From Halapricum desulfuricans (GTDB lineage: Archaea > Halobacteriota > Halobacteria > Halobacteriales > Haloarculaceae): a stretch of DNA of 64,000 bases. Under the pieces are notes generated by a model. It searched no databases, was not told the origin of the DNA, and worked only from the letters and a program-made list of their open reading frames with translations. Below, one piece after another: positions 16,384 to 58,569 of this stretch (position 1 is the first letter of the stretch; each line of letters begins with the position of its first letter). The translations under genes and the position numbers were made by a program. Location: contig NZ_CP064788.1 in NCBI RefSeq assembly GCF_017094525.1, forward strand, positions 1-64,000, read 5' to 3'.

Positions 16384-16713
16384 TCACCCGCTGTAAGTGC
16401 GGATACGATCGATACGTCCGTCGTCGAACCGCAACACGTCGACGAACGCCGTGATCTGCTCCCCATCGGCGGCGAGCAGTCGCCCATCCACGGCCAGCCC
16501 CGCGTCCCTCTCGTAGATCGCGTCGATCGGGTGGGCCGTGTCGGTCCGGGGCCGCTCGTCTCGCATGAACGTGATGAACCGGTCGCGCCCGTCGAGCGTC
16601 ATGTCGGGCCGTCGATGGACGAACGTCGACGTCAACACCGATCGTAACGTCTCGTAGTCGTGGTCATCCAGCGACTGATAGTACGTCCGGGCCGTCACGA
16701 CGCGGTCGTCCAT
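16384..16713 (-). CDS. SnoaL-like (NTF2-fold) protein
   Basis: This 109-residue protein has the NTF2/SnoaL pattern: helical start (TARTYYQSLDDHDYETLRSVL), then strands FVHRRPDMTLDGRDRFITFM and a C-terminal sheet ending FVDVLRFDDGRIDRIRTYSG. Such proteins are small-molecule isomerases, hydrolases or polyketide accessory enzymes; no specific role is inferable. The ATG at 16713 gives the canonical family length. It is convergent with glgP, 7 bp apart. Confidence 0.75.
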   Translation of the reverse strand: MDDRVVTARTYYQSLDDHDYETLRSVLTSTFVHRRPDMTLDGRDRFITFMRDERPRTDTAHPIDAIYERDAGLAVDGRLLAADGEQITAFVDVLRFDDGRIDRIRTYSG

Positions 16714-16787
16714 ACTGGTGGTGGGAACCCGAGCCACTAGAAGCCGTCGCCGTTCGCTCCCGGGGCGATCCGTCCGCGAAGCCCTCA

Positions 16788-16947
16788 TACGGTCGGTTGT
16801 AATACTGCCGGCTGTAACAAACTGAAGGAATTCGCCACCCCGGGGTGGCGAATATCTTTACGAACTTACAGCCGGCAGTATAAGTCTGTTCCGGATCGAT
16901 CGCATCCGTTATGCGATCGCACCGGTAAATCGTTACAACCGACCGTA
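16788..16947. mobile_element. MITE A (79 bp) interrupted by MITE B
   Basis: Terminal inverted repeats TACGGTCGGTTGTAA (16788-16802) and TTACAACCGACCGTA (16933-16947) bound a 79-bp element identical in layout to 28348-28426, split by an 81-bp insertion (B plus a TAA duplication). The flanks are TCA at 16785-16787 and 16948-16950. The right TCA is the TGA stop codon of the peroxiredoxin gene. The core holds the palindrome GATCGCAT-CCGTT-ATGCGATC. The TNA duplication is what IS5-family ISL2-like elements produce; no transposase is in the window. Confidence 0.85.
16803..16880. mobile_element. MITE B (78 bp) nested in MITE A
   Basis: The ends TACTGCCGGCTGTAA and TTACAGCCGGCAGTA are exact inverted repeats, and the centre is the palindrome TTCGCCACCCCGGGGTGGCGAA. 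It is flanked by TAA at 16800-16802 and 16881-16883, while the uninterrupted A copy has a single TAA there, so this is a clean insertion with 3-bp duplication. An identical 78-bp copy in inverse orientation lies at 58423-58500. Confidence 0.88.
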
Positions 16948-18216
16948 TCATTCGTCGTCTTCGAGTTCGGCGGCGATCTCGGCGACTTCCTCGTCGGTAA
17001 CGTCCGAACTGTCGGCGACGTTCGAACCGTCGTCGTCCGAATCGTCGACATCGTCCGACTGCCCGGCGTCCGGGTCGGCTCGTTCCTCCACCGGACCGAC
17101 ATCGCCGACCGCCTCGGCGATCTGGTCCGCCGCGGCCCCGTCGGCCTCCCCCATTTCGACGCCCTTCCCGCCGTACTCGCGGGCCCGGCGCTGGGCGTCG
17201 GTCTCCAGTCCCCGCGTTTCGACCGCCTCGTCCCCGTCGTCGATTTCGACTTCCTCGAGCAGGTCGATCCCGCCGGCGGACTCGTCGTCGCCCTCGCGGA
17301 TCTCGTCCATTATCGACGTCTCCTCGTCCGGTTCGAGGACAATCTCGCCGTCGTCGGTGATGTCGTCGGGATCGATCGGCTCGTCGAGATCACGTGCGGT
17401 TTCCAGTGGCGCTTGCGCGTCCTCCCGATAGGCTTCGCCTTCCTGTCCGTTGCCGCTCGAGAACTCGTCGGCGGCGGTCGCGAGCCAGTCGGCCGCCTGC
17501 CACAGCGCGTTCGACTTGCTCCGGGCGCGGTCGAACGGCTCGTCGAGCACCCCGGTCTCGCTGAACCGATAGGCCGTGTCGAACTCCTCGGCGGCCTCCT
17601 CGAACTCCTTTCGGGCCCGCTCGAAGTCGCTTCTGGCGAGCATCCACTCGTGGTCGCCAAAGGCGTTCATCGCGCTGGTGAACGCGCGCCGCCCCTCGAT
17701 ATAGCGGGCGTGGCCGACGCGATACCGCGAGAGCGCCGTCGAGTCGCCCCCGATGGCCTCGATCGTCACGCGGATCGGTTCGACCTCCGGGCGTTCGTAG
17801 GGGTCGCTGGTCGCCCAGCGATACTGGATCCGGCCGTTGAGATCGATAACGAACACGGCTCGCTGGACCAGCCGTCCCTCCTCGCGATCGTCGACGACGC
17901 CGTATCGCCCGGCGACCGCCCGGCGCGTGTCGCTCAACAGCGGCACCTTCAGGTCGTAGCGCTCGGCGAAAGCCCGGTGGCTGTAGACGCTGTCCGGCGA
18001 CACCGCCAGGACCGTCACGTCCTTCTGCATCGTGAACACGTCGAGCTCGCCGACGTCCGAACTCTGCCCGTCACAGGCCGGGTTGAAATCCGCCGGATAG
18101 AACATGAGAACGATCACGTCTTCGCCCAGCAACTCACCGAGGCTTCGGCTGTCGATGTCCCCGCCCACGACTGCCGGCAACTCGAACGATGGTGCCCGTT
18201 CCCCCAGTTCGACCAT
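16948..18216 (-). CDS. Peroxiredoxin (AhpC/TSA) with long acidic C-terminal extension
   Basis: Residues 1-160 are a thioredoxin-fold peroxiredoxin that reduces peroxides; the single peroxidatic cysteine lies in FYPADFNPACDGQ (about 48), followed by VLAVSPDSVYSHRAFAE. A helical segment (about 165-265) with YRVGHARYIEGRRAF and RSDFERARKEFEEAAEEFDTA resembles TPR-like repeats, and the last ~120 residues are Asp/Glu-rich and probably disordered. Typical peroxiredoxins are 150-220 residues, so the ~200-residue extra part is unusual. The stop codon TGA is supplied at the boundary of MITE A. Start ATG 18216 (a GTG at 18222 is possible). Confidence 0.85.
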   Translation of the reverse strand: MVELGERAPSFELPAVVGGDIDSRSLGELLGEDVIVLMFYPADFNPACDGQSSDVGELDVFTMQKDVTVLAVSPDSVYSHRAFAERYDLKVPLLSDTRRAVAGRYGVVDDREEGRLVQRAVFVIDLNGRIQYRWATSDPYERPEVEPIRVTIEAIGGDSTALSRYRVGHARYIEGRRAFTSAMNAFGDHEWMLARSDFERARKEFEEAAEEFDTAYRFSETGVLDEPFDRARSKSNALWQAADWLATAADEFSSGNGQEGEAYREDAQAPLETARDLDEPIDPDDITDDGEIVLEPDEETSIMDEIREGDDESAGGIDLLEEVEIDDGDEAVETRGLETDAQRRAREYGGKGVEMGEADGAAADQIAEAVGDVGPVEERADPDAGQSDDVDDSDDDGSNVADSSDVTDEEVAEIAAELEDDE

Positions 18217-28287: not shown

Positions 28288-28347
28288 CGATACGGATGTT
28301 GGACGCCAGTCCCCTACCGACCACCAGAAGGTGAAGAGTCCGGTTCA

Positions 28348-28426
28348 TACGGTCGGTTGTAAGTCTGTTCCAGATCGATCGCATCCGTTATGCGATCGTA
28401 CCGGTAAATCGTTACAACCGACCGTA
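28348..28426. mobile_element. MITE A (79 bp), intact copy
   Basis: Ends TACGGTCGGTTGTAA and TTACAACCGACCGTA are perfect inverted repeats, with the inner palindrome GATCGCAT-CCGTT-ATGCGATC. TCA flanks both sides (28345-28347 and 28427-28429), a 3-bp target duplication. The right TCA is the TGA stop codon of rpoF. The element lies between the convergent RimK-type gene and rpoF. Confidence 0.88.
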
Positions 28427-28783
28427 TCAGGCGTATTTCGCGACGACGTTGAGGATGTCGTCGAGTTCGTCGCCCGACAGCGAATAGCGTTCCTGAGCGA
28501 ACACGGCCCGCAGTTCGTCCCGGTCCTGGGGCTGTAGGTTGGCGATCTTGTACGCGGTGGCCTCGTCGACTTTCTCCAGATCCTGCAGTTCGTCGACGAA
28601 CTCCCGGGACTCCTCGACGTCGAGCGTCGCAAAGCGATTGACGTGTTCGATGGCCCGCGTGAGTTCGTAGCGCATCTCCCGGTCCTCGTCGAGCGCGCGC
28701 TCGCGTTCGATGTCCTCGAGGACGTCCTTGGCCTCGGCGAGGGTCAGGTACTCCTCCTCGAGTTTCTCCTTGAATATGGTCAT
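28427..28783 (-). CDS. rpoF: RNA polymerase subunit Rpb4/RpoF
   Basis: This 118-residue protein is the archaeal Rpb4 homolog, which pairs with RpoE/Rpb7 to form the polymerase stalk. The pattern EYLTLAEAKDVLEDIERERALD, AIEHVNRFATLD and the C-terminal HRDC-like IANLQPQDRDELRAVFAQER fit. It starts 3 bp after the L21e stop. Its own stop codon is the target site of a MITE, yet the protein end (NVVAKYA) seems complete. Confidence 0.93.
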   Translation of the reverse strand: MTIFKEKLEEEYLTLAEAKDVLEDIERERALDEDREMRYELTRAIEHVNRFATLDVEESREFVDELQDLEKVDEATAYKIANLQPQDRDELRAVFAQERYSLSGDELDDILNVVAKYA

Positions 28784-49201: not shown

Positions 49202-49298
49202 GTGTCGCCGTCGGTGCTCATACTGGTGGCCATACCATTTCGAAACGATCTGACACGCTGTCGTGACAGATATCGTTACGAACGTATAGCCGCAAGCA

Positions 49299-58232: not shown

Positions 58233-58569
58233 ATGGCCTACGCACAGGGCAGTCTCATCCTCGCGCCAGCGACGTTCAAAAGCGGGGTACGGCCGTATCT
58301 CGTCGTTTCCAATCGGACTCGACCGTTTTTCTGAGACCGGTATACGGTTGCGGTCATCACGTCGACCGAACGGGAAGCGGCAGTCGAACTGACGGCGGAT
58401 TCCCTCATCGAGGGAGAACTGATACTGCCGGCTGTAAGTTCGTAAAGATATTCGCCACCCCGGGGTGGCGAATTCCTTCAGTTTGTTACAGCCGGCAGTA
58501 TTACAACCGACCGTATCAACCATGACTGCGGTCGCAGACAGGATTCACGAACTGACCCGGGTTGTGTGA
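58233..58569 (+). pseudogene. PemK/MazF-like toxin gene, broken by an A/B hybrid MITE
   Basis: It starts MAYAQGSLILAPATFKSGVRPYLVVSN, has an in-frame TGA at 58332-58334, continues YTVAVITSTEREAAVELTADS to EGEL, and is then cut by the repeat at 58423-58515. After the repeat, MTAVADRIHELTRVV (58522-58569) looks like the toxin C-terminus. About 35-40 central codons seem lost. The family is inferred from the RPYLVVSN and VAVITSTE segments. Confidence 0.65.
58423..58515. mobile_element. Hybrid MITE: B (58423-58500) joined to one A terminal repeat
   Basis: Bases 58423-58500 are the exact reverse complement of B at 16803-16880 (78 of 78). They are followed directly by TTACAACCGACCGTA, the A terminal repeat, just as in the nested copy read backwards. 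The unit thus has one B end and one A end. Flanks are TGA (58420-58422) and TCA (58516-58518), which are similar but not identical. Confidence 0.85.

Follow-up and report, generated by a model that had tools for sequence, protein, structure and literature searches.

A TNA-flanked element nested within a second one in Halapricum desulfuricans, and the probable MITE-like nature of both

The window, the whole stretch of 64,000 nucleotides from Halapricum desulfuricans that was analysed (contig NZ_CP064788.1, positions 1 to 64,000), contains a 79-bp element, A, at positions 16788-16947, which is interrupted after its base 15, at an inner TAA, by a 78-bp element, B. The TAA is doubled around B (16800-16802 and 16881-16883), and TCA is present on either side of A (16785-16787 and 16948-16950). 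The features of this locus and the other copies in the window are as follows.

16785..16787, no strand: left TCA target duplication of the outer A; a single TCA at the empty site of the same-genus genome G001
16788..16947, + strand: element A, 79 bp when uninterrupted, with B within it
16788..16802, + strand: left terminal repeat of A, TACGGTCGGTTGTAA, with the TAA target at its end
16803..16880, + strand: element B, 78 bp long with terminal repeats TACTGCCGGCTGTAA; positions 28-51 of the element form a central 24-bp palindrome
16881..16883, no strand: second TAA, the target duplication of B; single in the intact A at 28348
16884..16947, + strand: remainder of A, with the GTCTG side, the inner palindrome and the right terminal repeat
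16933..16947, - strand: right terminal repeat of A, TACGGTCGGTTGTAA
16948..16950, - strand: right TCA of A, which serves a 424-aa AhpC/TSA gene as its TGA stop codon
16948..18222, - strand: host gene with an AhpC-TSA domain (PF00578, E 1e-27), intact despite the insertion
28348..28426, + strand: uninterrupted A, 79 bp, TCA duplication at 28345-28347 and 28427-28429
28427..28783, - strand: homologue of RNA polymerase Rpb4 (PF03874, E 2e-22), whose TGA stop codon is the duplication of A
49221..49298, + strand: decayed copy of family C (repeat TACTGGTGGCTATAC, here TACTGGTGGCCATAC) with a damaged right end
58423..58500, + strand: second B copy of the window, TGA on its left and TTA on its right
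58501..58515, - strand: 15-bp remnant of an A end, the other A sequence lost, followed by TCA

The initial annotation had read this locus as B nested in A with a 3-bp TAA duplication. The nested insertion was confirmed by the exact coordinates, the doubled TAA and the single TAA in the intact A at 28348-28426, which matches the interrupted A; as a single event it is ordinary. The copy at 28348 had also been put forward as the empty site, but it is a paralogous copy of A. A true orthologous empty site is present in G001. It was found by comparing positions 16400-17600 with five other genomes of the same genus. The G001 alignment was broken into query 1-383 and query 553-1201, separated by 7 bases, and the flanks, ∼89-90% identical, met at a single TCA that is the stop codon of the AhpC/TSA gene. 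The G001 junction reads ...GCGAAGC-TCA-CTACTCG..., and the window reads ...CCC-TCA-[A with B]-TCA-TTCG. G002 likewise has no element at this place, and TCA precedes the matching sequence there. Beyond 18.4 kb, where the window has its sites at 28348 and 58423, the gene order of G001 differs from that of the window. Evidence of mobility from an empty site is present at the one site compared, in G001. Since the empty site holds a single TCA and this TCA is the stop codon, A was gained there with the gene undamaged, and B came later, inside A.

Matches to both repeats were abundant. At up to 3 mismatches the A repeat had 10 matches in the window against 0.93 expected from shuffled sequence, and the B repeat had 14 against 0.34, which is far enough above expectation to exclude chance. 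In the whole genome (G000) the A repeat matched 73 times and the reversed pattern never when up to 2 mismatches were allowed; for TACTGYCGGCTGTAA the numbers were 166 against 12. The genome-wide matches were listed and their surroundings were then fetched; identical TNA stood at both sides in 70 of 74 A/B rows, two artefact rows (113 and 81 bp) having been left out. A family-blind scan of 380,604 bases of G000, in which both ends starting with TA and a TNA duplication were required, returned 92 elements once one 113-bp artefact row had been dropped, and their terminal repeats define at least six families. They comprised 27 A-type elements (three of them nested outer copies), 43 B-type elements including the TACTGTCGG variant, 17 of family C, one of D, three of E and one of F; the scanned stretches had been chosen for A, B, C and D-like matches, and the copy numbers of the other families are incomplete. 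The duplication was TCA in 44 elements, TGA in 39, TAA in five and TTA in four. The elements are multicopy and without coding capacity, with sizes of 62-98 bp and 160 bp for the nested form. Terminal inverted repeats were confirmed in A and B. The repeats have a TA(C/G) tip, mostly T(G/A)TA on the inside, and a family-specific middle block that is identical at both ends.

The insertion sites had a clear preference, with C at -4 in 50/92, G at +4 in 46/92, G at -6 in 43/92 and C at +6 in 47/92, and the favoured target, GAC-TSA-GTC, is palindromic. Element A contains four TNA sites, only one of which is TAAGTC, at the inner edge of the GTCTG-side repeat. All three intact nestings used the TAA of this TAAGTC: B at 16788, and C at 1541262 and 2696224. 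This TAA is the best target match within A; the good half-site TAA-GTC would turn A into a target for its relatives and account for the same TAA having been hit in three A copies, once by B and twice by C. In G021, a genome of the same family, B lies in an A-type end with a TTA duplication (locus L146), at the same A site judging by the flanks. The arrangement of B and A end there is similar to that at 58423-58515 in the window. The unequal TGA and TTA flanks of the window copy look like the result of a deletion from the element end, and 15 bp of A remain there. Five tandem pairs had exactly one TNA between the partners, and a sixth (1395640 and 1395721) was recognized by position, its second element having been missed by the scan. 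Such pairs probably formed when the TNA duplicated by one element was used again by the next.

Direct observation showed that A and B have inverted ends, come with a 3-bp TNA duplication, exist in many copies and lack coding capacity, and it also revealed an orthologous empty site. They are probably non-autonomous, MITE-like mini-transposons, moved in trans by a DDE-type cut-and-paste transposase at GAC-TSA-GTC. Such a transposase would pair both ends of an element, make a 3-bp staggered cut at the palindromic GAC-TSA-GTC, and join the element so that TNA becomes duplicated. A 3-bp TNA duplication at a palindromic site is known from the IS1031 group of the IS5 family and from PIF/Harbinger with its Tourist MITEs, and the elements here share it. 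Their ends start with TAC or TAG, unlike those of IS1031 and PIF/Harbinger, and the corresponding transposases were absent from the genomes searched (PF13586 in 0 of 9 genomes, PF13359 in 0 of 14 above the cut-off). Because domains of the IS5/IS1031/Harbinger type are absent, we infer the enzyme class from the duplication only. The wider set of elements is a MITE variant that has been little described.

It had been proposed from the similarity of the A and B terminal repeats that one transposase may serve both. The similarity held, with the same base at 12 of 15 positions, and A and B are also alike in duplication type, target site, length and design, all of which is compatible with one enzyme. 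No such enzyme was found in the sequences searched. Elements with the less similar repeats TAGTGGTTGCTG, TAGTGACCGTTG and TAGGGATTAGCG, however, have the same duplication and length classes as A and B, so that either a single enzyme or several related ones could be at work. One transposase common to A and B is plausible. A serious competitor, which we stop just short of favouring, is that two or more related but distinct transposases move A and B, one per repeat, and that the common duplication and length reflect the enzyme family. The middle block of the repeats, being the same at both ends and within a family and different between families, argues for this, as do the subterminal motifs, of which a CGATTTACCGGT-like and a GTCTNTTCCGGAT-like one are common to A, D and E, while B and C have another pair. 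Against it, no family differs from the others in target site, duplication or length classes, and some elements have mixed ends: in G000 the element at 694730-694791 has one A end and one intermediate end, and that at 417872-417949 has one B end and one C-like end. The two mixed elements hint at exchange between families.

The elements fell into length classes of 77-80, 98-99 and 107-108 bp. Seven sets totalling 1.36 Mb, including three plasmids chosen for B-like matches, were scanned for TNA-flanked inverted ends with spans from 40 to 400. Lengths among the pairs starting with TA were 78 (13 pairs), 79 (3), 80 (1), 99 (1), 108 (2), 359 (2) and, for the nested copy, 160 (1). The 13 remaining pairs were scattered, every length being different (52 to 382), and no comparable peak was present in the controls of the same scan (other outer trinucleotide classes and direct repeats). 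Helical phasing of the two ends could perhaps underlie the steps of 20 and 30 bp, although 30 bp is no exact multiple of 10.5. Covariation was analyzed in 20 rows hand-picked for variety, which represent 19 distinct 78-bp B/C-type elements. In these, 14 of 26 pairs had changed on both sides, a number that 0 of 500 shuffles reached, and within the central palindrome it was 9 of 12; the score was 0.342, against 0.147 for shuffled and at most 0.100 for slid pairings. Covariation of the terminal repeats is expected from transposition alone. That of the center suggests that the foldable palindrome itself is maintained or that its arms correct each other.

Exact placement on stop codons was frequent. 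Genes were called by their codon usage, with a score derived from 29 long open reading frames of the window; on this basis 27 of the 92 elements, and 24 of the 83 with a TSA duplication (29%), lay exactly at the stop codon of a gene. Among the TSA sites available in the window (non-coding or stops), 40 of 373 (∼11%) were stop codons, which gives an odds ratio of 3.4 (P 7e-5), and a second control, restricted to TSA sites with C before or G after, gave 19 stops in 151 (P 0.003). Both controls rest on simple gene calls on the window, and the flanks of some copies extended for only ∼300 bp. The excess holds in both tests; part of it could be due to survival bias rather than targeting, or to gene-call error. 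The stop codons TGA and TAA fit TNA, and an insertion there would keep the upstream gene and its stop whole, which is why insertions at stops would commonly survive.

Such placement raises the alternative that the elements persist because they have a function as 3'-end hairpins, acting as terminators or in mRNA stability, and are not selfish DNA. The share of insertions on stop codons would fit this, as would the strong predicted folds (z -9.3 for B and -7.6 for A) and the compensatory change that keeps the central palindrome. The majority of copies, however, are away from stop codons, the palindrome has no T-run, and transposition by itself would make the two ends symmetrical; we consider a retained hairpin function improbable. 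Six loci had no match in Rfam. Far less probable still is an origin of the 160-bp structure by recombination, or its movement as one composite, with no sequential insertion. The structures at 1541262 and 2696224 have the same size and layout, but both hold C, each with its own TAA duplication, and thus arose separately from the B case, and the usual A copies in the genome are uninterrupted.

If A and B are moved in trans, as we prefer to read them, a parent transposon might carry their ends. A transposase gene bounded by the A or the B repeat was not found in the G000 repeat pairings, the stretches of relatives or the plasmids scanned. In G000, the B-type repeats of the + strand (up to 1 mismatch) and the A-type repeats (up to 2) yielded only short elements, truncated or lone ends, and copies broken by an IS. 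A search for TNA-repeat-...-repeat-TNA of up to 3.5-4 kb gave no transposon in the scanned G000 stretches, the loci of relatives, and the Halomicrobium, Haloarcula and Natribaculum plasmids. The 1491-bp unit at 2844057-2845547 has intact B ends, a TCA duplication and a 437-aa PF01609 transposase inside, but the chance that it is the parent is negligible, since its transposase part is bounded by ends of another kind, CATYCGTCTTTAGCTAAGA, with a duplication of 10 bp, CTTTACGAAC, inside the B sequence, and four more copies of this IS lie elsewhere with different flanks. The unit is a B copy struck by an IS that we take to be ISH8-like, in view of the 10-bp duplication and 1413-bp length of ISH8 (PMC10264941). 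Around it, at 2843968-2845845 of G000 (L181 919-2796), there is a triple nesting, in which ends CATCCATCTTCGGTTA with a 10-bp duplication CACGTTCAGG enclose the B copy split by the ISH8-like IS.

The other candidates were rejected as well. The PF01609 loci of G000 were ISH8-like with a 10-bp duplication or of other kinds, none with TNA. Four PF13358 elements were aligned and all had different ends. They are near-identical IS of ∼1.11 kb with DDE_3 (PF13358) in G000, at L372 (131 kb), L375 (235 kb), L376 (2231 kb) and L378 (2818 kb); by eye, all four split the middle of a palindrome, which in one case is the hairpin of an E-like mini-element. Ordinary-looking open frames were contained in a TNA-bounded stretch of 1209 bp in Haloquadratum (L400) and in pairs of 1.0-1.1 kb at L077 and L094, and these were read as chance pairings of common TCA flanks. 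In viral contigs the A and B repeats matched one position per contig, which is chance-like, and the A subterminal motif had 0 matches; the B subterminal motif was present in 33 contigs, in 32 of them once and in one twice, 7.8 kb apart.

Short palindromic repeats of several kinds are known in prokaryotes. REP elements are not known to make a target duplication. Palindromes of the REP, ERIC and Correia type are short, intergenic and present in many copies, like the elements here; they differ in organism and in their ends. In Halobacterium, ISH2 is a prokaryotic MITE moved in trans by an IS, ISH8 (PMC10264941), and shares with A and B the short, transposase-free structure, inverted ends, target duplication and many copies. 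The MITEs described for Halobacterium are longer and have longer duplications (PMC10264941): ISH2 has ∼520 bp and a 10-bp duplication, whereas the elements here are near-complete palindromes of ∼78 bp with a 3-bp TNA, and ISH2 has ISH8, whereas A and B had no matching autonomous IS in the sequences searched. Three classes of transposase-free repeats, including SMRs, are described in a study on Haloquadratum walsbyi (PMC3119063). SMR-A has ∼110 bp and SMR-B goes down to 80 bp; they have inverted ends, target duplication is given as absent, their mobilisation was left open by the authors, and they are described as aiming at palindromes of IS605-type elements (PMC3119063). SMRs and the elements here come in the same two size classes and insert into other mobile elements; their ends bear no relation to known transposons (for the elements here judged against the transposons met in this analysis), and each group has several families that are mutually without sequence similarity. 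The comparison is one of descriptions; the elements here have a TNA duplication, and we keep them apart from SMRs because the latter are described without one (PMC3119063). In the open-access literature searched, no 78-bp TNA element of haloarchaea was found.

A broader proposal would unite these repeats in a size-quantised archaeal superfamily (78, 98 and 108 bp), moved by a stand-alone transposase that is absent from same-ended elements and placed preferentially on stop codons as mobile 3' hairpins, with SMRs as the same thing; we regard this as speculative and rather unlikely. Nested MITEs are ordinary. Less ordinary are the many end families with one duplication, the fixed lengths, the coevolving central palindrome and the frequent exact placement on stop codons, in a set that is spread over several haloarchaeal families with no visible parent. 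Should a single enzyme or enzyme family be responsible for moving the whole set, this would help to understand the spread of transposase-free repeats among haloarchaea, the question left by the Haloquadratum authors, and would account for the tolerance of compact genomes to dense insertion.

Related elements were present on plasmids of Haloarcula, Natrinema, Halostella, Natribaculum and Halomicrobium. The Haloquadratum plasmid PL47 had no such element, and in Haloquadratum J07HQW1 the pattern TNATASN7TGTA was not enriched (49 matches versus 98 in the control), which is evidence against A/B-like elements being common there. One 108-bp TNA-flanked element was found in 400 kb of J07HQW1, adjoining the stop of an 83-aa open frame. 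More elements of 107-108 bp, with mostly unrelated interiors, were present in G014, G018, G021 and G034. The J07HQW1 copy (L406 13008-13115) and one of G014 (L114 494-601), both 108 bp long and TNA-flanked, have a recognisably alike, non-palindromic interior in two genera. In G021, a genome of 2.4 Mb that is 71% complete, the degenerate terminal repeat was matched exactly 231 times, the highest number among the 39 genomes searched.
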